This document shows positions 413 through 22,904 of a stretch of 64,000 nt of DNA, in pieces. A program made the translations under genes and the position numbers. A model generated the notes under the pieces. The model did no database searches, was not told the origin of the DNA, and saw only the letters and a program-made list of their open reading frames with translations. This DNA is from Geobacter sp. DSM 9736 (lineage in GTDB: Bacteria; Desulfobacterota; Desulfuromonadia; Geobacterales; Geobacteraceae). Location: assembly GCF_900187405.1 (NCBI RefSeq), contig NZ_LT896716.1:2670001-2734000 (forward strand). The letters run 5' to 3'. How positions within the stretch are numbered: the first letter of the stretch is position 1; every line of letters begins with the position of its first letter.

Positions 413-3400
413 ATGTCAGTCAGTAAAGGTGTTTCCGTACTTATAGTGGAAGCTTCTCAGGATATCGATCTCCTGCGGGAGCACTCTGGCCATCTTAAAA
501 ATAAGATGTTTCTGGCAATGTCGGCAGAAGCGGATCATGCTTGTCATAGCGAAGGCGTGCCGTATGTAACAGTAGAAGATTTTTATTCAGAGCAGGAACT
601 TTTCAAAGGTGCCAAAGATATGTACCGGCGGCTGGAAGAATTCTGCTCCATATTTGACAGTTACTTCCAAAAGATATTCGTCCACACTCCTTTTGAATTT
701 ACCTCAAAGCATTACCGGCACCAAGTCAAGGCCCTCCTTGATTCGCTGTTCTTCAGGTTCTACAGCCTGTCTCATGCTATCGAACAGCTACAACCGAAAG
801 TGGTCGTTTACCTGAAATCCCCCGCTCTCCCCGTCGAGGACGACCTGTATTTTCTCCGGGACTCGTTGACAGCACGAGTCCTCCCATGCCTGGCGAAACA
901 AAAAGGCATACAAGCTATCGAATTTTCACGTAAATCCTTGACGTGCGGACCGGCTGAGAGTCACAAAAAACATCTACAGTCACCTCCTCTTCCAGATCTT
1001 GAGAAGCCGACAGTGCTGATTGGCAGCCTCTGGACAAACAGCGAGATTCTAATAGAACTGCAGAGGTGCGGGATTCAGATAGTCGATATCAAACCCTACC
1101 TCGATAGCGGCGACATATCTGTGCCAGAACTCGATAAGCTATGTACTAAACTTTGGAAATCTTTATCAGACGATTCAAGATTGACCAGCTTGTTTAACTT
1201 TGGCGGCGTGGATCTTTTCTCATCAGTTTCAGATCGCATTTCCCATCTTGTCACGAACCTAGTCAGCCGGCACATCGTATTTCGACTTAAAGCAGACCTT
1301 CTTTTCAGCCATTTCAAAAGATCAGTCTTGCTTAGCAACAGCCCCGTCAGCCCGATGGATATTGCAGCCTTTGCTTCCGCACGGGCTAAAGATGTCCCTA
1401 GTATCGTGTACCAGCATGGCATCTTTCTCGGAAACCCGGACTACCTCTACGCGGAGACGCAGTTTCCTGACTACTGGCTGAACTACGGTCCAGGAGAAAC
1501 CCAATTTGCTGAACAGCATGGCTGTATCGGAGAAAATGTAACTGCCCAGCCTGTTATGGTTGGGTGTATCGACTATGACAGACTCGTACAAAGGTATGCT
1601 CTCGACAACAAAGAAAAAAGCACGGACAGCTGCACGATCCTGTACCCCCTCGCAACTCTGCACGGTGACTATCGACCGCTGAGAAACCAGAACCAGGCAG
1701 ACATAAGCTATTGGCGCACCATCAAGGAAACCATTCAGCTATGCTGCAGCTTTCCCTTTGTCACCTTGGTGGTAAAAACTTTTCCGCATGAACATGTACT
1801 GAATCCGGTCGCGTTGTGGGTGAAGGAACAGGGTATTACAAATTGTGTGGTAATTGATCAGCCTTGGTTCGCAGAGCTGGCACCTATTGCAGACGTCATC
1901 ATTACCGACATCGTCTCCTCACCCATGATTCAGGCTACCGCAACACGAAAGCACCTAATAACATATGCCAACCCAGACCATTTTCCCCAAGCATTCCCGG
2001 CAGAAGCACTAAGGTTGCTGAGTAAGCGGGCTAGTGTCGCCTACACTAAAGACGATTTTTTTCAGAAAATAAAGGAGACACTGGTAGAGAAGACGTGGCT
2101 CTCGACGCCTCCTAACAACAATGAATTCCTCATGGGGCACGGAACATACCTCAACGATGGCCGATCTTCCGAACGTGCGGCAACTTTCATTTCTGAGCTG
2201 ATACATTCTCCGGCCATTGGAACTGGGGAAACGTACTCGTGTGAAGAATGGCTGACCGACACCCAGAGGCTTTCCTACTCCGATTACTGGAACGATGAAA
2301 ATATTGAGAAAAGCAAAGAGTGGTGGATTCTTGACGGCAACTTCGAAAAAATGGAGGAGTACCTTCATAGCACCGGGTTGCCAGCTTTGCTGGAAGAAGC
2401 GGTCAAAGCAGCAAAGGCTTCTTTCGGAAAGGAGATAACCGGAATCGGCTGTGACCTCGGTGCAGGCAACCTGTGGGCAGAACCCTTTCTATTCAGGCAT
2501 GGGCAACCGGATAAGGTGTACTGCATCGAGTACTCACGCCACCGATTATTCAAACTCGGACCCGCAGTTCTCTCTCATTACGGCATATCACCGGCAAAGA
2601 CATCACTTGTCCTGGGCGACTTCCACCAGCTCCATTTTTCTGATGCATCACTCGATTTCCTGTTCCTTTCCCAGGCGTTCCACCATTCTGACAAACCCGA
2701 ATTGCTCCTCAGCGAGATGCGCCGCGTTCTGAAGCCGGACGGTTTCATCCTGCTCATCGGTGAACACTACCCGCCCGACGAATCCGCAATACAACCATTT
2801 CCGGTGGATTCAGTCACCGGTGACCACTACTATACTCTAAAGCAATATTCGGAGATGTTTTCCGCCGCAGGATTCGAGGGATGCAATGTAAGAATCAGAA
2901 ACTCCGAATTTCAGGCGTTTGTTCTAGTTCCTGCACGCAAACTAGCTCAAAATGCCACAGAGAAGATCACCATTCTTCAGCCTAACGAAGCGGCATGCCC
3001 TCTTCCAGGCAACCCGTCGCGCTGGGCCTACCTTGGCACAAACGCACGCTTTGCACTCGAGCTAGAAGCAGGTTGCCTGAAGGATATCCCCCGTATCCAG
3101 ACGGGCTTAGAGCTCCAGCGATCGGCCGAGCGCGTCAGGCAACCGTTTATCAAATGGCTGGATGATTTAAACAGTGAACGGGGAGGCTCCGTGGCGTGGT
3201 GGGCCTCCCAGACATCGTCTAAAAAACCCTACAGTCAGCTATTCCCTTCCCTCTGCTTTCTAGATCTGGCCATTAGGCTCCGGCAGATGTGTCAGGACGA
3301 ACATCTCCTCCTCGTAGTAGAAAACGTCGGCCTGCGGCGGCAGCTGGAAAAGTTGTGGGGCGGCTCATCCTCGGCAGCTCCATGGGACACCGCTGCAGGG

Positions 3401-6400
3401 CGAATGGCAATCCAAGCGCATGCACAAGCGGTACACACGCAGCATTACCGCCACAAAGTGGCAGAACTGGAATCTGCAGCCGCGCTACCACCATCAGCCT
3501 CTTCACCGGTCGAAATTGCAATTCTCACGTATGTAGATGATGGCGTTCTGGACGAAACCGGCAACCTCCGCGACCGCTACTTTGGTGTACTCCCGCAGTG
3601 GCTCAGAGCACAGGGGCAAGATGTAGCCTGGATACCATTCATCTACCAGTGGACAATGACTCCCTGGGAAGAGGCTGTTCGCAGGGTGCGTTCGTGCCCA
3701 GACCCTGTCATTTTCATGCATGACTACCTGACACCCGATGATGTAGCCCGAAGCATAACAACGGCAGAGACAGACCTCGTTCCCTGTTGGGACGCTACGT
3801 CTCAATCCTGTGCAGGCCTCAGGGTAGAAGAGCTGCTGAAGGAAGAAGAAGTAAGGGCCTGGAGCGGAACCGACGTCCCGTCTCACCTGCTCTTCGTGCC
3901 GTTTCTGCGCCGGTTAAAGGAGAAAAACCCGGACATCACCACCTTTATCTACCCTTTTGAAAATCAACCTTGGGAAAAGGTGTTTTGTCTCGCCGTGCGG
4001 CAGTTCTTCCCGAGGGCTCGGCTCATCGGCTACCAGCATACGATGGTCCAGAACATGTGGCTACCCTACTTCCCGGAAGCTACAGAATGGACGGCAGGTC
4101 TTCTGCCTGACCAGGTGGCATGTGCAGGGGAAGCATCTCGGCAGATTTTCAAAAACAACGGGTTTCCCGAGAAGATGCTGAAAATTGGAGGTGCTCTCCG
4201 TTATGCCGGACTTCTAGGCAACTTAGAGAAAAAAGTCACGAAGATTTCAGTTGGAAACCGGATTCTGGCGACCCTACCAATCGGAGAAAATGATTCTGCT
4301 GCACTTCTTCACCAGCTCGTCGTAGCATTCGCCAATAATGCGGCAGTTTCGGTCAGGCTCAAGCCACATCCCACCCTCCTGCCACCGGAGCGTATCCACA
4401 CACTGCTGCCTGGATCTTCATCATTGCCGGATAATTTTGAGGTAGTGACCGGTACGGCGGACGAAGCTCTTGCAGATGCTGATCTGCTCGTTTATTCCAA
4501 TACCACTACTGCACATGATGCCTTGGGACGCGGTCTCCCACTGATTCACGTCATACCTCAAACCGTCATCTCCCTGGATTCCTGGTCATCACTCATCGAC
4601 TTGCCCGGTTTCCGCTCCGTCGCAACACCAGAAGAACTGGCAGCTGCTGCTAATGAAGTTCTAAATCTTTCCACCACTGATCGAGATAAACATGCCCGGA
4701 TGGCCAGAGAAGCGGTCGCTCGTTCATTTTCTAAGATTACGGATGAATGTCTTAGTACGTTCCTTCCCGACACCCCGCCCACCATCTCCGTCATCATCCC
4801 CTGCTACAACTACGGCAGATATCTCGGTGACGCAGTCTCCAGCGTCCTAAACCAGACATACCAGAACTTCGAGATCATTATCGTAAATGACGGCAGTCCG
4901 GATGATACGAAAGAGGTGGCTGAGAAACTGATCGCTGATAATCCCGGCCATCGGATCACACTGCTGAATCAGGAAAATTCCGGCCAGCCGGCAATCTCGC
5001 GTAACAACGGAATCAGGGTCGCAAAGGGTGAATACATCCTCTGCCTTGACGCCGACGACATCATTGCGCCAACCATGCTGGAGGAGTATCTCAATCTGCT
5101 GAAGGAGCACCCGGAAATATCTATCGCATACGCGGACTACGAGACATTCGGAGCAACTGAATCAAACATCTGCCACCTGCAGGAATACAACCTGAATGAC
5201 CTTCTGACGACCAACCACATGATTTATTGTGCTCTTTACCCCCGCAAGGTGTGGGAAGAGGTCGGGGGGTACAAGACCAATGTCAGAGGCTACGAGGACT
5301 GGGACTTCTGGATTGCATGCGGTGAGAAGGGCTACTACGCGAAACGGATTGCAAAACCGCTGCTTAGTTACCGCATACACAGTGGAGGGTTGTACAACAA
5401 CGCTCTGGACCGGCACCAGGAGCTTATGGCCAACATCATCCTCAACCATCCGAGCCTGTACGATCATAAGAGCTGCTCATGGGCCGGCGAGTTTGTGAAG
5501 TCAAAAAGAGATGAAAACACAACCTCTACGGCAGCATGTGCCGTCAATCAGAAACCGCTTTCACCCGAAGACGGGATCTGCAGAAACTACCCGCGCAACG
5601 TACACTTCCTGCTCAACGACAAGTGCAACGCCAAGTGCGTGTTCTGCGGAGGGGACTACTACCGGAGCAAAAGCGGCAAGGCGATCACTCTTGAAAAGTT
5701 CAAGAAGATGGCCAACAACCTGCACCTCGAAAATTTCGCCACCATATGCCTTGCAGGTGCCGGCGACCCCCTTCTGAACCCCGACTTCATGCCTATCGTC
5801 CGCTATACAAATCAAAATTATCCGAACGTTGGCATAACGGTCACTACCAACGGCATCGCACTTACGCCGGAACTTTCGGCGGAGATCATGTCGTCTGGCA
5901 TTTTCCTGGTAAATGTCTCGATCAATGCGGCTACGCGTGCAACCTACCATCGGCTCATGCAGGTGGATCAGTTCGAACGCGTCTGCGCAAATGCCGCCGC
6001 TTTTACCGCGCAACGAGAAAAGAGCGGAGCTAGAGCTGCCCTGCAGCTGTCCTGCGCCATCAGCCGGATCAATATCGAGGAGTTGCCGGAGCTTGTAGAA
6101 CTGGCAAATTCACTTGGCGTCAGACACATCAATCTCATGTACTGCCGGTTTTATCCCAAATCGCTACGTCACCTCAATATCGAGTCTAACGAATACCTGC
6201 TCAAAGATGAAGAATCGCTCTTTTTCCACCAGGAACTCTCGGACCGAAAGGTTCTCGAAGCAAAGGAACTTGCGGAACGGTACGGCATCTCCATCACTCA
6301 CGAGCCGCTTTTCAGAGAAAAGGGGACGCCAAGACCGTGTACATGGACGACTACAGAACTGATGGTTGGCTTCGACGGAGAAGTCTTCCCGTGCGGAGGA

Positions 6401-9400
6401 GGCGAGCTTCACTTCAAGAAAAAAGTTAGAGATGGAGTTTACCACTTCGGGAATGCTCTTGAAGAACCTCTCGAAACCTTTTGGAACAACGATTTCTATC
6501 GAAGACTTCGCATCTCCAGCAAGAGAGCAGACGAGTGCTCGATCGAAGAATGCCGCTTCTGCGCAAACCTGATGCAGCACGACGACGTCCGCTCGCATAT
6601 CATGGAGTGGAAGGAGTTCGATGCTGAGAGCACCGACCGACGACCGAACACCGCCCCCCCCCTGGTCTCTGTAATCGTTCCGACCTACAACAGACCACAC
6701 CTGCTCCCTGAAGCTCTGCGAAGCATCCTGGACCAGAAGTATTCGAACATTGAGATTATTGTTGTAAATGACGCCGGAGAGGATGTCGAACGGCTCGTGA
6801 GTTCAATAAGCCCAGACATCGTCTATCTGCGTCATGACAGGAATAAAGGTTTGGCCGCAGCTCGCAACACGGGTATCCGGCACGCGCGCGGAAAGTACAT
6901 CGCATACCTTGACGACGACGACCTCTTCTATCCGGACCATGTCGGAACACTCGTGGAATTTCTGGAGAGAAACAACTCCCAGGTAGCGTATACCGACTCC
7001 CAACGCTCTTACCAAATTCTTAGGGATGGTCGGTACGAAGTGGTCAAAAGAGAGCCTGCCTATGGCAAAGACTTCGACTACGACGAAATTATGGTCGACA
7101 ACTTCATCCCAATCCTATGCGTGATACATGAAAAGTCTTGCATCGGTGTCGCAGGCTACTTCGACGAAAGCCTATGTAGACATGAGGACTGGGATCTCCT
7201 GATAAGGCTGTCCCGAAACTTCCGCTTGGATCACATCCCGAAAATAACCTGTGAGTTTTCATACCGCATCGACGGCAGCGGAATGACTCCGGGGACATTT
7301 CCGCTGTTCCAAGTCACAAGAAGTGCAATACATGCAAAGTACGACAGCCTTCTGTCTCCGGAACTTCGCAGACGGCAGCGCATCGCGACTTGGCATTTCA
7401 TGACCGCAGTGCATTCCTTCATAGAAGAACGGGTAAAGCCGCTTCTGCCGCTTTTTCTGCAGGGCAGGGATGCCGAAGGAGAGCAGCAGCTTGCCAAGCT
7501 GGAGACAACCGGCGCCACAAAGACACAGCTTCGCTCGGCTCTGGCATTCCTGTTAGGCATGGAAGCCATCCGCAAGAATGATATCGAGGAGGCCGCCCAG
7601 CAGTGGGAAACCGCAGCAGCGATCGATCCGATGAATCCAACAGCTGCACGGCATCTGGCCGTGCTTTATGAAAAACTCGGGCGGCAGGCAGAGGCAATTC
7701 TTGTATACGAGCGTATCCTCTCCCACGACGATATCGACATAAACTCTCTTCTTTCTATTGCTGATCTCTACAGAAAGGAGGGAAGAACTAGTGAGGCTAT
7801 AATGTCCTATCGAAAAGTTCTCGAACTGGATCCAGATAACGCTGGAGCTTCGGCGGCATTAGATGAGTTGCCAGGAAGATTTTCCGCCACAGGTACTATG
7901 TGTAATGACTCGCCGGACAAACCTCTAGTTTCCATCATCATTCCTCTCTACAACAAGGTGGAGTATACGAAGCAGTGCCTGCAAGCTCTGTCCCTTAACA
8001 CTGATCCGCACCCCCCATATGAATTGATTATTGTTGATAATGCTTCCTCGGATGGGACTGCTGAATACCTTAGAACACTCTCCGGAGACGTGACAATAGT
8101 CGCCAACGTCAAGAACCTCGGTTTTGCGAAGGCTTGCAATCAGGGGGGACGGCTGGCGCAGGGACGCTACGTCGTCTTCCTGAACAATGATACGATTCCA
8201 CACCCCGGATGGCTTGACGCTCTCGTCCGTGGTGTTGAGCAGGATGGAGCCGATATTGTCGGCGCAAAACTGCTTTACCCAAATGGACGCGTTCAGCATG
8301 CAGGGGTAGCCTTCAACGAACAGTCGATCGGCTACCACATCTTTAACGGGTTCCCCGCTAATACTCCGGCGGTCAGTCGGAAACGCTTCATGCAATGCAT
8401 CACCGGCGCCTGCATGCTTATGCGTCGTGAGCTCTTCTCTGAACTTGGCGGCTTCGATGAGGGGTATGTGAATGGCTTCGAAGATGTTGACCTCTGCCTG
8501 CGGGCCGGACAGCGCGGCCGCCGCATCCTATACACCCCAGAGAGCATCCTAATTCATTTCGAGGAAACCAGTGAGGGACGTAAAGACCATGATCAGCCGA
8601 ATATCAGGCGTTTCCTCAGTCGATGGCAAGGCAAGGTCCGCTGCGACGATATGGATATCTACCAAAGAGAAGGCTTTGGCTGTGAAAAGATGCCGGACGG
8701 CCGTATCCGCCTTTTCCCGACTCAACAGGTACAACCTGCAATTAAACAATATTCTGCCGATCAGCCAATAGTTTCTGGTAATCCTTCATTAGGCTCCCCG
8801 GCAACGCAACACGAGAAGCAGTCCGCGCTTGCATTAAAGGAAAAGGGACAAATCCAGGAGGCCCTCGAGTCACTTCTGAACATATCCAAAAGTGGGGACA
8901 CTTCCGTGCTTGCAGACATAGGAGACTGTCTGGCAGCTCTCGGACATAATAACGAAGCAGCAGCGGCGTACGCGGAGGCATGTTCCGTTGACCCTTCTAA
9001 TGTTCAGGCTTATGTGGGATTGGGAGTAATCGGAATTCTGGGTGAGAGCCTTTCGGAAGCCGAGGATGCTTTTCTGACTGCACTAAAATATGAATCGCGT
9101 TCCGTAAAAGCGACGTGCGGACTTGGCCTGGTTCGCACAGCGCAGGGATGCAGGGAGGAGGCTTTCGACCTTTTCATAAAAGTCCTCGATATCGACCCTG
9201 AAAATCTTACATCTCTGCACGAACTGGTCAAACTTGCGTATTCCCTAGGGCGTTTTGACCAAGTTGCGCAGTCTCTTGAGCGATATCTTCTATACCATCC
9301 AGGTGATACCGACATGCTCTTCTCTTTGGCTGGACTGTACTACAAAGACGGAAATAGAGAAAAAGCCGGCGAGGCAATCGAGCGAATTCTCATCCTCTGC

Positions 9401-10159
9401 CCTGACTACGAGGGAGCTGAGGAATTTCGCGCAAAGCTTCATGACCATCCGATACCGCCTGTCCATGAGGTAGCAGGGGCAACGGCTGATGACAAACGCA
9501 AAAGAAGTCCCAAGACTAGGGCTGAGGATCCGTTGAAGCTGAAAGATGCCGGGAGGTTTGAAGAAGCACTCGTAGCTTTCACTATGGCGCGAACTGAAGG
9601 CGACCTTTCAGTACTTACGGATATGGGTGACTGCTGTGCAAACCTTTCCAGATTCGAGGACGCCGCTCAACTCTACAAGCAAGCTCTTCAGGTGAACCGG
9701 AAGGACATCCGGCCGCTAGTAGGGCTGGGAGTAACAAGCTTGGTGCAGCAAAAATTAACTAACGCAGTAACATGGTTCAATAAAGCACTTAGAATAGACC
9801 CTGACAATGTCAGCGCCCTTTCCGGTTTAGGAATGGTGCGTAATATGCAGAACAAGTCGGCAGAGGCGATTGAGTACTTCAAACGTGCTTTAAACGCGGA
9901 TGCCGAGAATCTAACCAGCCTTCATGAACTTATCAAAGCAGTTTATGCGACTGAAAAGTACCATGAAGCTCTGCCATATCTTGAACACTACCTTAAGTAT
10001 CATCCTGCCGACCTCGACCTGCTTTATGCACTAGCGGGACTTCAGTTCAAGGCTGGACGACATTTAGAGGCCATGAACCATATCGAGAAAGTGCTAATGC
10101 TCTCCCCTCAGTACGAAGGCGGGCAGGAGCTCTGGGAAAAAATCAGGGAGGCGGCATAG
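413..10159 (+). CDS. Giant multidomain glycan enzyme: two GT-B-like modules, methyltransferase, three GT2 domains, radical SAM, TPR
   Basis: 3,248 residues. I chose ATG 413, with CAGGAGC ten bases upstream, over the in-frame TTG at 386. Visible order, approximate residues: 1-610 GT-B-like polysaccharide transferase resembling capsule or CDP-glycerol transferases (YQHGIF near 332); 630-880 class I SAM methyltransferase (GCDLGAGN near 678, DFLFLSQAFHH); 900-1440 second GT-B-like surface carbohydrate module; 1457-1690 GT2 (DGSPDD, DADD); 1720-2065 radical SAM with CxxxCxxC at Cys1738/1742/1745 and a SPASM-like Cys-rich tail; 2083-2330 GT2 (DDDD); 2374-2486 TPR; 2504-2756 rhamnosyltransferase-like GT2 (NND); 2802-3246 TPR in two related 235-residue units. 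No signal peptide is seen, so it is probably cytoplasmic. It likely builds or modifies an oligosaccharide; substrate and target are unknown. The frame is intact, so it is a true fusion and not a sum of ORFs. Confidence 0.9.
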   Translation: MSVSKGVSVLIVEASQDIDLLREHSGHLKNKMFLAMSAEADHACHSEGVPYVTVEDFYSEQELFKGAKDMYRRLEEFCSIFDSYFQKIFVHTPFEFTSKHYRHQVKALLDSLFFRFYSLSHAIEQLQPKVVVYLKSPALPVEDDLYFLRDSLTARVLPCLAKQKGIQAIEFSRKSLTCGPAESHKKHLQSPPLPDLEKPTVLIGSLWTNSEILIELQRCGIQIVDIKPYLDSGDISVPELDKLCTKLWKSLSDDSRLTSLFNFGGVDLFSSVSDRISHLVTNLVSRHIVFRLKADLLFSHFKRSVLLSNSPVSPMDIAAFASARAKDVPSIVYQHGIFLGNPDYLYAETQFPDYWLNYGPGETQFAEQHGCIGENVTAQPVMVGCIDYDRLVQRYALDNKEKSTDSCTILYPLATLHGDYRPLRNQNQADISYWRTIKETIQLCCSFPFVTLVVKTFPHEHVLNPVALWVKEQGITNCVVIDQPWFAELAPIADVIITDIVSSPMIQATATRKHLITYANPDHFPQAFPAEALRLLSKRASVAYTKDDFFQKIKETLVEKTWLSTPPNNNEFLMGHGTYLNDGRSSERAATFISELIHSPAIGTGETYSCEEWLTDTQRLSYSDYWNDENIEKSKEWWILDGNFEKMEEYLHSTGLPALLEEAVKAAKASFGKEITGIGCDLGAGNLWAEPFLFRHGQPDKVYCIEYSRHRLFKLGPAVLSHYGISPAKTSLVLGDFHQLHFSDASLDFLFLSQAFHHSDKPELLLSEMRRVLKPDGFILLIGEHYPPDESAIQPFPVDSVTGDHYYTLKQYSEMFSAAGFEGCNVRIRNSEFQAFVLVPARKLAQNATEKITILQPNEAACPLPGNPSRWAYLGTNARFALELEAGCLKDIPRIQTGLELQRSAERVRQPFIKWLDDLNSERGGSVAWWASQTSSKKPYSQLFPSLCFLDLAIRLRQMCQDEHLLLVVENVGLRRQLEKLWGGSSSAAPWDTAAGRMAIQAHAQAVHTQHYRHKVAELESAAALPPSASSPVEIAILTYVDDGVLDETGNLRDRYFGVLPQWLRAQGQDVAWIPFIYQWTMTPWEEAVRRVRSCPDPVIFMHDYLTPDDVARSITTAETDLVPCWDATSQSCAGLRVEELLKEEEVRAWSGTDVPSHLLFVPFLRRLKEKNPDITTFIYPFENQPWEKVFCLAVRQFFPRARLIGYQHTMVQNMWLPYFPEATEWTAGLLPDQVACAGEASRQIFKNNGFPEKMLKIGGALRYAGLLGNLEKKVTKISVGNRILATLPIGENDSAALLHQLVVAFANNAAVSVRLKPHPTLLPPERIHTLLPGSSSLPDNFEVVTGTADEALADADLLVYSNTTTAHDALGRGLPLIHVIPQTVISLDSWSSLIDLPGFRSVATPEELAAAANEVLNLSTTDRDKHARMAREAVARSFSKITDECLSTFLPDTPPTISVIIPCYNYGRYLGDAVSSVLNQTYQNFEIIIVNDGSPDDTKEVAEKLIADNPGHRITLLNQENSGQPAISRNNGIRVAKGEYILCLDADDIIAPTMLEEYLNLLKEHPEISIAYADYETFGATESNICHLQEYNLNDLLTTNHMIYCALYPRKVWEEVGGYKTNVRGYEDWDFWIACGEKGYYAKRIAKPLLSYRIHSGGLYNNALDRHQELMANIILNHPSLYDHKSCSWAGEFVKSKRDENTTSTAACAVNQKPLSPEDGICRNYPRNVHFLLNDKCNAKCVFCGGDYYRSKSGKAITLEKFKKMANNLHLENFATICLAGAGDPLLNPDFMPIVRYTNQNYPNVGITVTTNGIALTPELSAEIMSSGIFLVNVSINAATRATYHRLMQVDQFERVCANAAAFTAQREKSGARAALQLSCAISRINIEELPELVELANSLGVRHINLMYCRFYPKSLRHLNIESNEYLLKDEESLFFHQELSDRKVLEAKELAERYGISITHEPLFREKGTPRPCTWTTTELMVGFDGEVFPCGGGELHFKKKVRDGVYHFGNALEEPLETFWNNDFYRRLRISSKRADECSIEECRFCANLMQHDDVRSHIMEWKEFDAESTDRRPNTAPPLVSVIVPTYNRPHLLPEALRSILDQKYSNIEIIVVNDAGEDVERLVSSISPDIVYLRHDRNKGLAAARNTGIRHARGKYIAYLDDDDLFYPDHVGTLVEFLERNNSQVAYTDSQRSYQILRDGRYEVVKREPAYGKDFDYDEIMVDNFIPILCVIHEKSCIGVAGYFDESLCRHEDWDLLIRLSRNFRLDHIPKITCEFSYRIDGSGMTPGTFPLFQVTRSAIHAKYDSLLSPELRRRQRIATWHFMTAVHSFIEERVKPLLPLFLQGRDAEGEQQLAKLETTGATKTQLRSALAFLLGMEAIRKNDIEEAAQQWETAAAIDPMNPTAARHLAVLYEKLGRQAEAILVYERILSHDDIDINSLLSIADLYRKEGRTSEAIMSYRKVLELDPDNAGASAALDELPGRFSATGTMCNDSPDKPLVSIIIPLYNKVEYTKQCLQALSLNTDPHPPYELIIVDNASSDGTAEYLRTLSGDVTIVANVKNLGFAKACNQGGRLAQGRYVVFLNNDTIPHPGWLDALVRGVEQDGADIVGAKLLYPNGRVQHAGVAFNEQSIGYHIFNGFPANTPAVSRKRFMQCITGACMLMRRELFSELGGFDEGYVNGFEDVDLCLRAGQRGRRILYTPESILIHFEETSEGRKDHDQPNIRRFLSRWQGKVRCDDMDIYQREGFGCEKMPDGRIRLFPTQQVQPAIKQYSADQPIVSGNPSLGSPATQHEKQSALALKEKGQIQEALESLLNISKSGDTSVLADIGDCLAALGHNNEAAAAYAEACSVDPSNVQAYVGLGVIGILGESLSEAEDAFLTALKYESRSVKATCGLGLVRTAQGCREEAFDLFIKVLDIDPENLTSLHELVKLAYSLGRFDQVAQSLERYLLYHPGDTDMLFSLAGLYYKDGNREKAGEAIERILILCPDYEGAEEFRAKLHDHPIPPVHEVAGATADDKRKRSPKTRAEDPLKLKDAGRFEEALVAFTMARTEGDLSVLTDMGDCCANLSRFEDAAQLYKQALQVNRKDIRPLVGLGVTSLVQQKLTNAVTWFNKALRIDPDNVSALSGLGMVRNMQNKSAEAIEYFKRALNADAENLTSLHELIKAVYATEKYHEALPYLEHYLKYHPADLDLLYALAGLQFKAGRHLEAMNHIEKVLMLSPQYEGGQELWEKIREAA

Positions 10160-10201: not shown

Positions 10202-11998
10202 ATGACCCATTTCGAACGAAACATATCAGCATTAAAACGCCAGAATGCAGCTTTGGCAAAAAAAGTTATAGCGACTTCCCCATCTCCGGACATCATCGTG
10301 GAACCGGCTAGGAATGGGGAGGTAACAGCGAAGGTCCAAGACATATACCTTCACTCTTCATACAACCCGTCTCGCGAGGCTGACGAATGGGTTCGGCAGC
10401 ACTGCTGCAAATCCTTGCCCAATACCCCCATTACCGTCATCGGCTTCGGCCTTGGCCATCACCTGCAGGTATTGGCGCGGCAGGGACAAAAAGGCTGCGT
10501 TATAGAGCCGAATTCTGCAATCATCAGAGCGGCGTTCGAAAACACTGACCTAAGCGAGACGATCGGCAAGTTTAGTCTACTGGATGGATCCAAAGATGTA
10601 ATCTGTCGCCGCTATCATCAGCTCCTGAAAGAAAGAGTAGCTGTTCACCCCGGCTCCGCTCGAGTTAATGAGGCTCTCGCGCGCCTTGGCAAGCATGCCG
10701 AAGGTCTGAAAGTAGCAGCGAAAGGTGGCTTACGTATACTGTTGGTGAATCCAATCTACGGGGGTTCCCTCCCGATTGCCCACCACTGCGGGCATGCCCT
10801 TCGCAGCCTCGGGCACCACGTCATTCCATTCGACAGCGAACAGCTTGCTGCGGGAATGGAATTCGCCAAAGGGTTCCGCTACAACCAGAGCCGCCGTGCA
10901 TTTAACACAGGCCTTGCGCAGCTCCTCTCGCAGGCTGTGGAAATACGGGCACGCGAGGTGCGCCCTGACATGATCCTTGCGCTCGCCCAGGCACCTCTGA
11001 TGCCGGAAACGATGCTTCGGCTCGATGCCCATGGCATCCCCACTGCCTTCTGGTTTGTTGAGGACTACAGGGTTCTGCCTTACTGGAAAGAATCGGCTCC
11101 AGCGGCGTCTTGGTTCTTTGGGATCCAGAAAGAAAATATCGCCTCAGAATTATCCAAACTCGGTGTCGCACGTTACTCCTATCTCCCCACATGCGCTGCA
11201 CCGGAAGTACACCGCCCTCTCGTATTGAAAAAACATGAGCGGGACGAATTCGGAAGCGATGTCTCTTTCGTCGGCGCCGGATACTTCAACCGGCAGATAT
11301 TTTTCAAAGGATTGACCGATTACAACTTCAAGATATGGGGAAGCGACTGGCCGCTCATCTCGCCACTTACCCCCTGGATCCAGCGGCGTGGGGAAAGGAT
11401 TGATACAGAAACGTGCGTCAGAATTTTCAACTCCTCCCCAATCAACCTGAATCTTCACTCATCGACAACCTGCGATGGGGTTAATCCTGACGGGGACTTC
11501 GTCAATCCCCGCACGTTCGAAATCGCTGCCTGTGGGGCGTTCCAGCTCGTTGATCGGCGCAGCCTTCTTCCCGAGCTTTTCGAGGAAAACGAGATTGAAG
11601 TTTTTTCGAGCCTCGTTGAAGCCAGGGACAAGATCGACCGGTACCTCCGCAATGCAAACGCACGGCGAGAAGTCGCAGAAAGGGGACAATTACGGGTTAT
11701 CGCTGAACATACCTATGAACGTAGAATGGAAGAACTAGTCGCCACCATGGTTGCCGAATTCCCTAATGTTGCGGATCGCGTACTAACACGAATTCAGCGG
11801 CGCGAGGAGATTGAGGCGGACCTTGATCGTCATCCGGGACTGCCAGAACTCCTGGCGAAACTTCCGGACAAGCGCTGGTTCGCGTTGGGAAACGTACTGG
11901 GCGGAATCGTCACCGGCGAAGGCAAGCTTTCGCGTGCAGAGAAGATATTCCTCATGCTCCAGAATGTTGAAATCACATGGGATAAGATACCAGAATGA
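10202..11998 (+). CDS. CgeB-like glycosyltransferase with Maf-like N-terminal region
   Basis: 598 residues from ATG 10202. The N-terminal 110 residues contain DIYLHSSYNP and the Gly-rich strand IGFGLGHHL, a pattern I know from the N-terminal part of Maf (motility associated factor) flagellin glycosylation proteins. The rest resembles CgeB-type glycosyltransferases (DUF3880 plus a GT-B glycosyl transferase domain): LLVNPIYGG near residue 180, AFWFVEDYR in the middle, and a C-terminal part with NPRTFEIAACGAFQL, where the nucleotide sugar should bind. It overlaps the next gene by ATGA, so the two are probably translated together. A role in glycosylating flagellin or another surface glycan is inferred from position and from its paralogue at 15489-17120. 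The sugar and acceptor are unknown. Confidence 0.8.
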   Translation: MTHFERNISALKRQNAALAKKVIATSPSPDIIVEPARNGEVTAKVQDIYLHSSYNPSREADEWVRQHCCKSLPNTPITVIGFGLGHHLQVLARQGQKGCVIEPNSAIIRAAFENTDLSETIGKFSLLDGSKDVICRRYHQLLKERVAVHPGSARVNEALARLGKHAEGLKVAAKGGLRILLVNPIYGGSLPIAHHCGHALRSLGHHVIPFDSEQLAAGMEFAKGFRYNQSRRAFNTGLAQLLSQAVEIRAREVRPDMILALAQAPLMPETMLRLDAHGIPTAFWFVEDYRVLPYWKESAPAASWFFGIQKENIASELSKLGVARYSYLPTCAAPEVHRPLVLKKHERDEFGSDVSFVGAGYFNRQIFFKGLTDYNFKIWGSDWPLISPLTPWIQRRGERIDTETCVRIFNSSPINLNLHSSTTCDGVNPDGDFVNPRTFEIAACGAFQLVDRRSLLPELFEENEIEVFSSLVEARDKIDRYLRNANARREVAERGQLRVIAEHTYERRMEELVATMVAEFPNVADRVLTRIQRREEIEADLDRHPGLPELLAKLPDKRWFALGNVLGGIVTGEGKLSRAEKIFLMLQNVEITWDKIPE

Positions 11999-13548
11999 AG
12001 CGAATTGCAATCCTTGCCATAGCGCGCTACGGTGACATGATCCAGGCCTCACCCCTCCTGCGTCAGCTCAAGCATACTTATCCCAAGGCGGAAATAACTG
12101 TAGTGGTGGAAGACCGTTTTTCCGGCATTCTCCCCCTTATGCAAGGGATCGATCGGACGATTATCCTTTCGAAACGGGAGCTCGCCTGGGAGATTGCAAC
12201 AGGGGACTCCCCCCTGACAGCATACATGCAAATGGATACGTTCGTCCGAAAGCTGGAAGAGCGTTCATACGATCTGGTAGTCAATATAACGTGCTCAGGT
12301 CTTTCCGCCTTTCTTGCGTCAGCTATGAAAGCTGCTGAATATTCCGGCTTCTTCGCAGATGATACGGGGCAGCGGGTTATCCGCAACCTCTGGGGGCAAT
12401 ACGTCTTCAGCTGGTTTAATGACCATATTAGGAAGTACAACCCCATCAACCTCGTCGATATCTTTACCCGACTCGGTGGTGTAGTGCCCGATGGAAAACG
12501 TGTCGAGCTTGTTCCTACGACAAAGGGAGAAGAAGAAGCCTCCCGAATAATTCAGGAAAAGAGGCTCACCGGAAAACGGCTTGTAGGTCTTCAATTAGGA
12601 GCCAGCGAGGAAAACCGGTGCTGGCCCGTGGATCACTTCGCTCGCCTCTCAGACCGTCTCCAAAAGGAACTTGGTGTAACGACCATCCTTTTCGGTGCTC
12701 CCAACGAAAAGGAATTGGCGGATAAAGCTCTTGCGGCCATGGAAATCCCTGCCGTGGACGTTGTCGGTGAAACAGGGATCGAATCACTTTTTTCCTTAGT
12801 AAGACGCTGCGAGGCTCTCGTTTCCAACGACACCGGCACAATGCACTTTGCAGCCGCGGCCGAAATCCCTGTGGTAATGCTTTGCATCGGCCCTGCATTC
12901 TTTCGCTGTACAGGCCCATATGGCGAGGGTCATCTTGCTCTCCAGCCAAACATCCCTTGCTCCCCATGCCCCTATAACCTGGAGTGCGGCGACCCCTTCT
13001 GCCGTACAGCCATAACTACTGACTCTGTTTTCAACGCCGCTCGACTTCTTATTGACGAGGGATATGAATTTTCTGTCAGTGATTTTGCGGGTAGTAAACT
13101 TTTCAGGAGCAGCTTCGCCTTAGATGGTTATCTAACTTGGGATGACTTATGCGATGCAGATTCTCAATCGGAAAAACTCACGAAGCGACGCGAAAAGATG
13201 TGGAAACGCTGCTTCAATGATAATGATCCCGGGATGGCAAAACCCACAGATGCAGTTCTCGGTGAGTTTTACGAGCTTATGCATCAGGGAATAAAAGTCA
13301 CCTCACAAATCATGTCCACTGCCCGCATAAACCCACTGCAGGTCTCTAAACTTAAAGATCTCGGCGAAAAAGAAGCAGCCGTAGAAGCAGAGGTGAAGCT
13401 GATGGGATACAGCCATGAAATTCTGGCTCCTATAACGAGTTTTCTCTCTCTTATGCGCGAGAATATCGTGGCCGGTGAAATTTGCGATGTCGCCGCTGAA
13501 ACAGCAAATATCTATCGATTAGGAGCTGCACTCTCAGCCAATCTGTAA
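11995..13548 (+). CDS. GT9-family (heptosyltransferase-like) glycosyltransferase
   Basis: 517 residues. ATG 11995 overlaps the stop of the preceding gene (ATGA). The first 350 residues match the GT9 ADP-heptose:LPS heptosyltransferase fold: N-terminal ARYGDMIQASPLLRQLK, LQLGASEENRCWP at the start of the second Rossmann half, and VSNDTGTMHFAAA in the donor-binding region. A Cys-rich stretch follows (IPCSPCPY, then GDPFC), as seen in many GT9 members. About 150 further residues at the C terminus are largely helical by composition and go beyond the usual family length of about 350. The protein is probably cytoplasmic or at the inner face of the membrane. Given the neighbours it may add heptose or a related sugar to a surface or flagellar glycan, not necessarily to lipopolysaccharide core. 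Confidence 0.85.
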   Translation: MKRIAILAIARYGDMIQASPLLRQLKHTYPKAEITVVVEDRFSGILPLMQGIDRTIILSKRELAWEIATGDSPLTAYMQMDTFVRKLEERSYDLVVNITCSGLSAFLASAMKAAEYSGFFADDTGQRVIRNLWGQYVFSWFNDHIRKYNPINLVDIFTRLGGVVPDGKRVELVPTTKGEEEASRIIQEKRLTGKRLVGLQLGASEENRCWPVDHFARLSDRLQKELGVTTILFGAPNEKELADKALAAMEIPAVDVVGETGIESLFSLVRRCEALVSNDTGTMHFAAAAEIPVVMLCIGPAFFRCTGPYGEGHLALQPNIPCSPCPYNLECGDPFCRTAITTDSVFNAARLLIDEGYEFSVSDFAGSKLFRSSFALDGYLTWDDLCDADSQSEKLTKRREKMWKRCFNDNDPGMAKPTDAVLGEFYELMHQGIKVTSQIMSTARINPLQVSKLKDLGEKEAAVEAEVKLMGYSHEILAPITSFLSLMRENIVAGEICDVAAETANIYRLGAALSANL

Positions 13549-13931: not shown

Positions 13932-14690
13932 ATGGATATAGCAACTATAATCGGTCTCATAATGGGTTTCGGCGCAGTAATCGGCGGCCAGATCCTTGAA
14001 GGCGGGCATGTCAGCGCCATCATTCAGCCGACCGCTGCAATCATTGTTCTGGGCGGTACATTTGGGGCCACTTTCGTAAGCTTTCCGATGCCGACGATCA
14101 TCCAGGCAGTCAAGGATGTCAAGAAAGCTCTGTTTCCACCGGCAACGAACCCAGAAATAATAATCAAGGATATGATCGGGTATGCCGCCAAGGCAAGGCG
14201 CAACGGGCTTATATCTCTTGAACAGGAAGCACAGACAATCAATGATCGCTTTACCAAGAAAGGCATATCTTTGGTTGTTGACGGAATCGACCCTCAGAAA
14301 CTGCGTGAAACAATGGAAATAGAACTCGCCTCCTACGAAGAGCATTCTAAAGCAAGCGCTGAAGTCTTCGAGTCTGCCGGCGGTTTCGCTCCGACTATCG
14401 GCATTATCGGTGCTGTACTAGGCCTCATTCATGTCATGAATAATCTGTCTGATACTTCCAAACTCGGAGCAGGTATCGCCGTCGCATTCGTAGCAACAAT
14501 CTATGGACTTATGGTTGCCAACATCCTCTGCATCCCTTTCGGCACCAAGCTTAAACAGAGACTTAAAGCAGAGATACAGCAGAAAGAAATGGTCATTGAA
14601 GGGTTGATCTCGATCCAGAATGGCGAGAACCCCCATTTCATCGAGCAGAAACTACGCGCTTACATGCACGATGAAAAGAAGGGTAAGTAG
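13932..14690 (+). CDS. motA: Flagellar motor stator protein MotA
   Basis: 252 residues, of normal length for the short MotA/PomA class. It starts with a hydrophobic helix (IATIIGLIMGFGAVIGG), has a second near residue 35, a long cytoplasmic region (about 60-150) with charged residues that contact FliG, and two C-terminal helices that begin with GGFAPTIGIIGAVLGLI. With MotB it forms the ion channel stator of the inner membrane and drives rotation. Its TAG stop (14688-14690) is followed immediately by the motB ATG, with no spacer, which suggests balanced translation of the two subunits. Whether protons or sodium ions are used cannot be decided from sequence by eye. Confidence 0.95.
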   Translation: MDIATIIGLIMGFGAVIGGQILEGGHVSAIIQPTAAIIVLGGTFGATFVSFPMPTIIQAVKDVKKALFPPATNPEIIIKDMIGYAAKARRNGLISLEQEAQTINDRFTKKGISLVVDGIDPQKLRETMEIELASYEEHSKASAEVFESAGGFAPTIGIIGAVLGLIHVMNNLSDTSKLGAGIAVAFVATIYGLMVANILCIPFGTKLKQRLKAEIQQKEMVIEGLISIQNGENPHFIEQKLRAYMHDEKKGK

Positions 14691-15470
14691 ATGGGGAAGA
14701 AAAAGAAGGGACACGAGAAGGAACCAAACCACGAGCGTTGGCTGGTTTCGTATGCAGATTTCATAACGCTTCTCTTTGCAGTATTTGTCACCCTGTATGC
14801 AATGTCGCAGACGGATAAGAAAAAGGTTGAAGAAGTAATCGCTTCCCTGCGCGAATCCTTCGGCTACAGCAAGACCTCTCCCGCAAGCAAACCGAACGTC
14901 ATTGACGCCGGAAGCATTAACATAATTCCCAGCCTCGAATCGAGAGTCGCTCCCCCTCCGAAAAAAACCGGAAGAAGCGGAAAAACTCATGCCGAGGAAG
15001 TTGATTTCAAGGCAATAAAAGCCGCTATTGAAGCATATCTTTTGAAAAATGGAGCTCAGGAGAAGGTAAGCGTAGAGATTAATCGTCGAGGATTGGTAGT
15101 AAGCCTCAAGGAAGCAGGCTTCTTCAACTCAGGAAGTGCAACAGTCCGTCAGGATTCTACTCAACTCCTTGCGAAAGTTGCCGAAGCTCTGAACAACTTT
15201 ACAAATCCGATACGAGTTGAAGGTCATACGGACAACATGCCGATCAGCTCATACAACTTCCCCTCCAACTGGGAACTTTCCACGGCCCGGGCAACCAATA
15301 TCGTCCAGTACTTCATCCGGCAATACAACTACGAGCCAGCCAGCATATCCGCCACCGGCTACGGTGAACACCGTCCTGCGGCAGATAACGGCACTTCCGA
15401 AGGACGGAGCAAGAACCGGCGCGTTGACATTGTCCTTCTCTCGCACGATGGAGAGCGCGGCGAACCGTAG
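14691..15470 (+). CDS. motB: Flagellar motor stator protein MotB
   Basis: 259 residues. A basic N-terminal tail (MGKKKKGHEKEP) leads into one membrane helix, WLVSYADFITLLFAVFVTLY, with the ion-binding aspartate at residue 23. A linker follows, then an OmpA-like peptidoglycan-binding domain (VEGHTDNMPI, NWELSTARA, GYGEHRPAADN, NRRVDIVLL). The protein anchors the MotA/MotB stator to the cell wall. The gene abuts motA. It ends only 18 bases from the stop of the oppositely oriented gene at 15489, with no obvious terminator hairpin between them, so the two convergent transcripts probably overlap. Confidence 0.95.
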   Translation: MGKKKKGHEKEPNHERWLVSYADFITLLFAVFVTLYAMSQTDKKKVEEVIASLRESFGYSKTSPASKPNVIDAGSINIIPSLESRVAPPPKKTGRSGKTHAEEVDFKAIKAAIEAYLLKNGAQEKVSVEINRRGLVVSLKEAGFFNSGSATVRQDSTQLLAKVAEALNNFTNPIRVEGHTDNMPISSYNFPSNWELSTARATNIVQYFIRQYNYEPASISATGYGEHRPAADNGTSEGRSKNRRVDIVLLSHDGERGEP

Positions 15471-20932: not shown

Positions 20933-21766
20933 CTACCTGAGGAGCGACAATGCTGCCTGCGGCGTCTGGTTTGCCTGTGACAGAATTGCGGTGCCGGCCT
21001 GGGTGAGGATCTGGGCCCGTGTCATCGCAGCCGTCTCGGAAGCAACGTCTACGTCACGGATGCGAGACTCCGCTGCGCTCAGATTCTCGACCGATACCTG
21101 CAGGTTGTTGATCGTTGACTGCAGGCGGTTCTGAACTGCACCCAGCGTACCACGGATGTTGTTGACGCTGGTTATCGCTGAGTCGATGGATGAAAGAGCT
21201 GCTGAAGCAGCGGCGGTGGTTGACCCAGAAACGCTGGCAGTGCCGACACCAATACTGGAAGCACCCGCAGCATTTATGGTCACGGCAATAGTGTCGTTTG
21301 TAGTTGCACCCGCCCCGACCTGGAAGGAAACGGCAGTGCCACCCGTAGCTGTAAAGAGGCTGGTGCCGTTGAACTGGGTCGCGCTGGCGATACGGTCGAT
21401 CTCGTTCTTCAGCTGATTAAACTCGTTGTTGATGTAGCTCCTCTGGTCAGAACTGACGGTTCCGGTTGCTGCCTGGGTAGCGAGCTCACGCATCCTTACG
21501 AGAATGTTGCTCACCTCATTCAACGCACCTTCAGCGGTCTGTACGAGAGAGACGCCGTCGTTCGCATTGCGCACCGCCTGGTTCATGGAGCGGATCTGCG
21601 AACGCATCCCTTCCGAGATGGCAAGTCCGGCGGCATCGTCGGCGGCGCTATTGATCCGGAGACCTGAAGACAGCCGCTGTAGCGATTTCGAGAGTTGGCT
21701 CTGGGTGATGGTCAGGTTTCGCTGTGCATTGAGTGACGGGATGTTAGTGTTAACTGTAAGTGCCAT
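20933..21766 (-). CDS. fliC: Flagellin, copy 1
   Basis: 277 residues, a short flagellin with little more than the D0 and D1 domains. N-terminal MALTVNTNIPSLNAQRNL and LSSGLRINSAADDAAGLAI, and C-terminal SRIRDVDVASETAAMTRAQ and GTAILSQANQTPQAALSLLR, are the conserved filament core. The central region is small and rich in Ala, Ser, Thr and Gly, giving possible O-glycosylation sites. It differs from copy 2 at only three residues. The gene has its own sigma-28-type promoter, a leader of about 130 bases with a CsrA-type hairpin, a good ribosome binding site (GGAGG 9 bases before ATG) and its own terminator, so it is monocistronic. Confidence 0.96.
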   Translation of the reverse strand: MALTVNTNIPSLNAQRNLTITQSQLSKSLQRLSSGLRINSAADDAAGLAISEGMRSQIRSMNQAVRNANDGVSLVQTAEGALNEVSNILVRMRELATQAATGTVSSDQRSYINNEFNQLKNEIDRIASATQFNGTSLFTATGGTAVSFQVGAGATTNDTIAVTINAAGASSIGVGTASVSGSTTAAASAALSSIDSAITSVNNIRGTLGAVQNRLQSTINNLQVSVENLSAAESRIRDVDVASETAAMTRAQILTQAGTAILSQANQTPQAALSLLR

Positions 21767-22070: not shown

Positions 22071-22904
22071 CTACCTGAGGAGCGACAATGCTGCCTGCGG
22101 CGTCTGGTTTGCCTGTGACAGAATTGCGGTGCCGGCCTGAGTGAGGATCTGGGCCCGTGTCATCGCAGCCGTCTCGGAAGCAACGTCTACGTCACGGATG
22201 CGAGACTCCGCTGCGCTCAGATTCTCGACCGATACCTGCAGGTTGTTGATCGTTGACTGCAGGCGGTTCTGAACTGCACCCAGCGTACCACGGATGTTGT
22301 TGACGCTGGTTATCGCTGAGTCGATGGATGAAAGAGCTGCTGAAGCAGCGGCGGTGGTTGACCCAGAAACGCTGGCAGTGCCGACACCAATACTGGAAGC
22401 ACCCGCAGCATTTATGGTCACGGCAATAGTGTCGTTTGTAGTTGCACCCGGACCGACCTGGAACGAAACGGCGGTGCCACCCGTAGTCGTAAAGAGGCTG
22501 GTGCCGTTGAACTGGGTCGCGCTGGCGATACGGTCGATTTCGTTCTTCAGCTGGGTAAATTCGTTGTTGATGTAGCTCCTCTGGTCAGAACTGACGGTTC
22601 CGGTTGCTGCCTGGGTAGCGAGCTCACGCATCCTTACGAGAATGTTGCTCACCTCATTCAACGCACCTTCAGCGGTCTGTACGAGAGAGACGCCGTCGTT
22701 CGCATTGCGCACCGCCTGGTTCATGGAGCGGATCTGCGAACGCATCCCTTCCGAGATGGCAAGTCCGGCGGCATCGTCGGCGGCGCTATTGATCCGGAGA
22801 CCGGAAGACAGCCGCTGTAGCGATTTCGAGAGTTGGCTCTGGGTGATGGTCAGATTTCGCTGTGCATTGAGTGACGGGATGTTGGTGTTAACGGTAAGTG
22901 CCAT
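22071..22904 (-). CDS. fliC: Flagellin, copy 2
   Basis: 277 residues, same length as copy 1 and identical except for three residues in the middle: EFTQLKN for EFNQLKN, FTTTGG for FTATGG, and VGPGATTN for VGAGATTN. The identity extends through most of the DNA of the coding region but not through the flanks, which suggests gene conversion or a recent duplication. All conserved D0/D1 sequences are intact, so both copies should assemble. It has its own sigma-28-type promoter, a leader with a CsrA-type hairpin, and a terminator. It is transcribed toward copy 1 and lies 241 bases downstream of fliW. Confidence 0.96.
   Translation of the reverse strand: MALTVNTNIPSLNAQRNLTITQSQLSKSLQRLSSGLRINSAADDAAGLAISEGMRSQIRSMNQAVRNANDGVSLVQTAEGALNEVSNILVRMRELATQAATGTVSSDQRSYINNEFTQLKNEIDRIASATQFNGTSLFTTTGGTAVSFQVGPGATTNDTIAVTINAAGASSIGVGTASVSGSTTAAASAALSSIDSAITSVNNIRGTLGAVQNRLQSTINNLQVSVENLSAAESRIRDVDVASETAAMTRAQILTQAGTAILSQANQTPQAALSLLR

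Follow-up and report, generated by a model that had tools for sequence, protein, structure and literature searches.

A 3248-residue multi-module protein at a flagellar locus of Geobacter sp. DSM 9736, a candidate flagellin-glycan enzyme

What could be made by a single polypeptide that carries glycosyltransferase, methyltransferase and radical SAM modules and is encoded close to flagellar genes, and on which acceptor would it act? The question is raised by a stretch of the Geobacter sp. DSM 9736 genome, here called the window (64,000 nucleotides; contig NZ_LT896716.1, positions 2,670,001 to 2,734,000). The original prediction, drawn from the letters of the window, was a protein that joins a whole glycan pathway in one chain and might serve as an assembly line for a flagellar or surface glycan. 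We put the chances at just better than even that it is a cytosolic modular flagellin-glycan enzyme, with an acceptor held by TPR blocks, which grew by fusing pathway genes.

Translation of window positions 413-10159 (+) gave, as predicted, one uninterrupted frame of 3248 residues with a single terminal stop. The gene and its modules are as follows; the order was derived from Pfam, NCBIfam and module comparison, and the borders between modules are approximate.

413 to 10159, + strand: single ORF, predicted multi-module glycan enzyme, 3248 aa
413 to 2257, + strand: GTB1, GT-B fold, residues 1-615 (single-gene relatives, structure model)
2270 to 2992, + strand: SAM methyltransferase, residues 620-860 (PF08241, Methyltransf_11, at 681-780, 5.8e-13)
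2993 to 4777, + strand: GTB2, TIGR04326-like surface-carbohydrate module, residues 861-1455 (TIGR04326, 5.9e-30)
4778 to 5512, + strand: GT2a, residues 1456-1700, LDADD at 1545 and EDWD at 1628 (Pfam, motifs)
5570 to 6577, + strand: radical SAM and SPASM, residues 1720-2055, CNAKCVFC (Pfam, motif)
6653 to 7432, + strand: GT2b, residues 2081-2340, LDDDD at 2166 and EDWD at 2258 (Pfam, motifs)
7433 to 7897, + strand: TPR block 1, residues 2341-2495 (Pfam)
7898 to 8752, + strand: GT2c, residues 2496-2780, LNNDT at 2590 and EDVD at 2690 (Pfam, motifs; 79% identical in L047)
8753 to 10156, + strand: TPR blocks 2 (2781-3035) and 3 (3036-3248) (Pfam; internal duplication, 41% identity)

The mechanical start of the ORF is a TTG at 386, and the ATG at 413 has a good Shine-Dalgarno sequence, CAGGAGCAAAAAAGAT, ahead of it. 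A search for start codons inside the frame that follow a Shine-Dalgarno-like word yielded four weak candidates, at residues 927 (GGAGG, GTG), 2464, 2686 and 3041 (GAGG), and none between the N-terminal half and the radical SAM-GT2 core. Given the candidates at 2464, about 30 residues ahead of GT2c, and at 3041, on the border of TPR blocks 2 and 3, a shorter second product may arise from an internal start. The promoter and terminator scan gave no excess over chance (9 hits with 11.8 expected, and 16 with 15.9). No membrane segment is predicted in the protein (hydropathy maximum 1.44, none above 1.6), which fits a cytosolic enzyme.

We judged a frameshift or assembly error behind the giant frame unlikely: the host genome is a single contig of 3,957,683 bases, 99.99% complete, and composition per 200 codons drifts along the gene (GC 0.47-0.55, GC3 0.47-0.70) with no abrupt break seen. 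Moreover, other genomes encode the C-terminal half in a single chain too. The original prediction was to be given up if a frameshift was joined by a lack of homologues with the same domain order; no frameshift was seen and the C-terminal half recurs elsewhere, though the full module order was found in the own genome only.

The predicted list of two GT-B-like modules, a methyltransferase, three GT2 domains, a radical SAM/SPASM enzyme and TPR blocks was confirmed by Pfam, NCBIfam and the GTB1 model. Relatives of GTB1 encoded as single genes occur in L102, L103, L104 and L107 (613-642 aa, 22-25% identity); the module itself had no Pfam family among the best 25 of 43, no NCBIfam model, no PDB sequence relative in protein or profile search and no relative in viral contigs. 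Its model (pLDDT 65.5, pTM 0.67) has a GT-B fold, and among the VIA matches listed UDP-GlcNAc 2-epimerases (Z 16.2, the best; rmsd 4.2, 303 aligned), MurG (15.3) and TagF (14.9) lie close together. The methyltransferase stretch 606-797 has 45% identity in G383, with a stop inside the stretch and a frame of 170 aa there. GTB2 scored 104.2 bits against the TIGR04326 cut-off of 250 and is a distant relative only (NCBIfam); its residues 863-1455 are 28% identical in G264. All three GT2 domains exceed the Pfam score (1.4e-102 in all), each with an ED motif and a DxD-type motif, but in GT2c NND replaces DxD. A carrier domain of the PKS/NRPS kind was absent from the best 25 of 43 Pfam families, the part of the Pfam results used for the giant.

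The radical SAM domain passes the Pfam cut-offs (PF04055 60.6 bits, 2.7e-16; SPASM PF13186 36.9 bits, 4.5e-09) and has the CX3CX2C motif as CNAKCVFC; core cysteines 257, 275, 328 and 331 are invariant across 8 sequences. No NCBIfam equivalog reached its cut-off among the best 25 of 44 families, the best being TIGR04317 (102 versus 380 bits). We searched this module in 97 relatives (4 matches at E<=1e-144, own included), 395 phylum genomes (5 at E<=1e-50), 274 class genomes (5 matches) and genome contigs (5 loci), sets that overlap. The holders of the core are ten distinct genomes: the own genome, Geobacter sp. GAC1 (G016, locus L048), Deltaproteobacteria SKS4.bin16 (G018, L047), G049, G177, G306, G415, G638 (contig L051), a Nitrospira MAG (L049) and an Armatimonadota MAG (L050). 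Radical SAM and GT2b share one frame in eight of them; they lie in adjacent frames in L050, and in L051 the radical SAM itself is split over two overlapping frames. A GT2c match stands in the same frame in 7/8 one-frame cores (only 34% in L071; none in L049), and TPR between GT2b and GT2c in 5/8 (the window, L047, L069, L070 and, by Pfam, L055). Because the one-frame arrangement recurs, with GT2c and TPR kept in part, the core is real, though rare and patchy.

Core modules may have been swapped, since pairwise GT2b identities track neither radical SAM (rho 0.15) nor GT2c (-0.13); radical SAM against GT2c gave 0.74. Co-inheritance of the core modules was thus borne out only in part. The Armatimonadota homologue lies at L050:2-3405 in a MAG with no FlhA or flagellin match in the genome, so another acceptor or a binning error is possible. 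More multi-domain glycosyltransferase giants adjoin the core protein at L049:441-5768 (1775 residues) and L048:14614-19050 (1478).

Radical SAM and GT2b were modelled together (pLDDT 78.3, pTM 0.54). GT2b takes a GT-A fold, with matches to 6p61 (Z 24.4, rmsd 2.0, 187 aligned) and SpsA (22.4, 3.2, 215). For the radical SAM-SPASM domain, peptide-acting and sugar-acting enzymes are mixed among the structural matches. The best of the VIA matches listed is the peptide-modifying SuiB (Z 25.3, rmsd 3.0, 300 aligned), SkfB (23.1; 2.9, 270) and anSME are listed too, and the presence of TPR blocks in the chain points to a protein as substrate. The domain might therefore modify the flagellin polypeptide itself, for example by C-methylation or a crosslink, with the glycosyltransferase domains glycosylating the same held protein. 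However, the sugar-acting BlsE (Z 23.9; 3.0, 276) and DesII (22.5; 3.8, 285) are close behind, the fold does not give the substrate, and the domain is fused to GT2 in 8/10 genomes; we consider this explanation decidedly improbable.

The N-terminal half is far more restricted. As one chain, residues 1-1459 were found at E<=1e-12 in one of 277 class genomes, the own genome; at E<=1e-8, 29 others among 390 phylum genomes matched, in parts only. The expectation that such parts are separate proteins elsewhere held for GTB1-like and GTB2-like genes, which in G289, G373 and G212 are separated by 5.2-6.1 kb, counted from matched stretch to matched stretch. Their clusters are nonulosonate-type, with NeuB- and PseC-like genes, and other genes in them also have counterparts upstream of the window.

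The fronts before the core also differ. Here the front is GTB1, methyltransferase, GTB2 and GT2a; the 2270-residue G306 protein has a CgeB-type and a methyltransferase part, the 2325-residue protein of the Nitrospira MAG has GT4 and two GT2, and those of SKS4, GAC1, G049 and G415 have almost nothing. In GAC1 a GT2a-like gene lies directly before the core. Two genomes, SKS4 and G415, encode the CgeB-methyltransferase protein ahead of the core as a gene of its own (746 and 729 residues), and it matches the front of the G306 giant with 46% identity over 712 residues, and 56% and 52% over 372 and 246 residues. Its joining to the core in G306 is a fusion seen directly. Judged from these sequences, the giant fits stepwise growth by fusing pathway genes.

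With its full order found in one genome only, the protein could be a relic or an inactive scaffold, a fused chain that does little by itself. Against this, the signature motifs inspected in the three GT2 domains and the radical SAM domain are intact, the frame runs for 3248 codons without a stop, and the radical SAM domain keeps 52-77% identity among six proteins. We find a relic barely credible.

The acceptor is suggested by the neighbourhood, where NeuB-type, GT9 and flagellar genes were found as predicted.

1 to 364, + strand: 3' end of a NeuB-type gene, stop at 362-364 (rest upstream, L059:19183-20000)
10202 to 11998, + strand: CgeB-type glycosyltransferase (PF13524, 2.1e-37; 73% identical in L047)
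11995 to 13548, + strand: GT9 glycosyltransferase (PF01075, 4.1e-26; 67% identical in L047)
13932 to 15470, + strand: MotA and MotB (Pfam)
20933 to 21766 and 22071 to 22904, - strand: two flagellin genes, putative acceptor (sequence matches)

The upstream part of the NeuB-type gene, cut at the window edge, matches PF03102 (1.3e-67) and NeuB_NnaB (7e-75, below cut-off). For the gene at 10202-11998 Pfam gave PF13524 and DUF3880 only and NCBIfam nothing, and the earlier label Maf-like found no backing in Pfam. Downstream of the giant lie CgeB, GT9, MotA and MotB, a second CgeB (CgeB2), PilZ, FliD, two flagellins (FliC), FliW, FlgL, FlgK and FlgN, the same order as after the core in SKS4.bin16; FlhF, FlhA and FlhB are found further on. 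The DNA of the two flagellin genes is 98% identical and the proteins differ in three residues. Upstream of the window, about 19 genes form a nonulosonate-type cluster with a PseC-like aminotransferase, a cytidylyltransferase-PseG-like fusion, two more cytidylyltransferases, NeuB, a SPASM enzyme, two B12-radical SAM enzymes and others, most of their NCBIfam scores being below the cut-offs. The claim that a whole pathway resides in one chain was thus not supported, as the sugar-making enzymes are these separate genes. Glycosyltransferase and sugar-synthesis genes by flagellin genes are what characterises a flagellin glycosylation island, and this is the arrangement found here.

The upstream cluster contains two further oddities. 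A glycyl radical enzyme (L059:2600-5856, about 14-17 kb before the window start; PFL-like, 9e-160, with GCTE and RLGGY stretches) sits inside it together with its activase, which is unexpected in a glycan locus; the other loci compared contained no similar gene at E<=1e-20 (L009 covers this very locus). Two B12-binding radical SAM genes lie at L059:12073-15026, with similar genes in L047, L069, L070, L102 and L103.

For the position of the core we counted the eight genomes with at least 28 kb of context, L050 (10 kb contig) and L051 (3.8 kb contig) falling outside the count. The core is found by flagellar genes on the same contig in six of them (own, G018, G016, G049 and, from outside the class, G306 and G415), and within 16 kb of flagellin in five, with gaps between radical SAM and flagellin of 14.3 kb (own), 15.6 (G018), 9.7 (G016), 11.3 (G049) and 6.1 (G306). 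In G415 flagellin is on another contig, and FlhA, FlhF and FliA are near the core. G177 has no flagellar query match on its whole 30 kb contig, where the core is at the contig end, and the Nitrospira MAG has none in about 49 kb around the core, with FlhA and flagellin on another contig. The own genome, G016 (64% identical) and G049 (73%) also have similar HDOD genes at the far end of the region. The count strengthens the predicted flagellar link, and we consider a role in flagellar glycan synthesis, taken alone, probable.

Some features of the locus point elsewhere. TIGR04326 is named O_ant_LIC13510, where LIC presumably stands for Leptospira. The GTB1 and GTB2 relatives belong to nonulosonate-type clusters, and around those in G373 and G289 the flagellar queries matched nothing for about 60 kb; the modules would therefore serve other surface glycans there. 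The core itself has no flagellar match in 2/8 genomes and is present in a MAG with neither FlhA nor flagellin matches. The protein could accordingly make part of a lipid-linked surface glycan such as an O-antigen, with its flagellar position being a shared insertion site only. The association with flagellar genes in 6/8 genomes, two of them outside the class, argues against this explanation, and the own genome has another glycosyltransferase-rich region, at 2.20-2.24 Mb, which could, at a guess, be the O-antigen locus. We regard a lipid-linked glycan as unlikely and continue with flagellin as the likelier acceptor.

Several observations on the flagellar loci were made in passing. The six flagellar-linked cores have a GT2c match of at least 41% and the two unlinked ones a weak match or none, a post hoc comparison that is a lead and not a test. 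The CgeB-methyltransferase protein and the B12-radical SAM genes recur before the core in L047, L069 and L070, two of the three outside the class, which suggests a transferred flagellar glycan module; transketolase halves precede the core in L070 and, by eye only, in L047.

How would the proposed flagellin-glycan enzyme work? The upstream cluster would make a modified nonulosonate, the GT-B and GT2 domains would add sugars successively to flagellin or to its first sugar, and the methyltransferase and radical SAM domains would modify the added sugars. The TPR blocks would hold flagellin, and fusion of the pathway genes would ensure equal amounts of the enzymes and keep them physically joined. 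The TPR role is proposed because of Caulobacter FlmG, whose TPR half, according to the accessible part of the paper, is flagellin-binding and required for flagellin glycosylation (PMC7591256). By this analogy we give a TPR-flagellin contact slightly less than an even chance; family matches are silent on the partner, which could be something else. Action of the modules in a set order, as an assembly line, seems to us somewhat unlikely. Clearly unlikely is a true protein-bound line in which TPR holds flagellin while radical SAM chemistry, methylation and glycosyl transfers follow in order, maybe with radical modification of flagellin or the attached sugar.

Known systems resemble the giant in part. 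FlmG too combines TPR and a glycosyltransferase in one chain with a NeuB-type nonulosonate pathway, as far as the accessible text of that source goes, but it has 596 residues and one GT-B domain, and the giant adds methyltransferase and radical SAM modules. Unlike the GT-B type enzyme linked to TPR in FlmG, the glycosyltransferases flanking the TPR blocks of the giant are GT2 (Pfam). At flagellin loci most GT41 and GT2-30 enzymes carry methyltransferase domains (PMC4875605, available part); these fusions share glycosyltransferase and methyltransferase with the giant but have far fewer modules, and radical SAM is not mentioned in that part. WsaE of Geobacillus stearothermophilus likewise has two glycosyltransferase activities and a methyltransferase domain in one chain, but acts on an S-layer glycan on a lipid carrier, and the portion of the paper at hand mentions neither radical SAM nor TPR (PMC3898925). 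Closest is the SKS4.bin16 protein (L047:8631-13679), with radical SAM-GT2-TPR, then GT2c-TPR, and the same following genes; it differs in its 1682 residues, a GT4-like insert, the lack of the GTB1-methyltransferase-TIGR04326-GT2a half and a CgeB-methyltransferase gene before it.

In a full-text search, with most of the subscription literature outside it, radical SAM enzymes were not linked to flagellin glycosylation in any of the papers listed, and no paper joined radical SAM, glycosyltransferase and nonulosonic acid. Radical SAM genes are described in capsule or sulphation clusters (PMC8743553, accessible part), the term 'radical' is absent from the Aeromonas flagellin island paper (PMC7874193), and the mentions of 'SAM' in the available part of PMC5109656 concern methyltransferases. 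Fusions of the GT-methyltransferase kind, in flagellin islands and in WsaE, are thus known, and what is new here, as far as the literature was searched, is radical SAM at a flagellin-glycan locus.

Most of what is known of flagellin glycans comes from loci that encode many small enzymes, the order of action being worked out gene by gene. Here many steps lie in one chain, and the radical SAM-GT2 pair is kept across several bacterial families, often by flagellin genes. The core proteins at flagellar loci (1129, 1264, 1682, 1684, 2270 and 3248 residues) form a natural series of pathway-gene fusion, with one fusion seen directly. The claim that follows is a testable one, that radical chemistry belongs to flagellin glycosylation. 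Should the assembly-line reading be true, flagellin modification would gain its first radical SAM enzyme, to the extent that the literature was searched.
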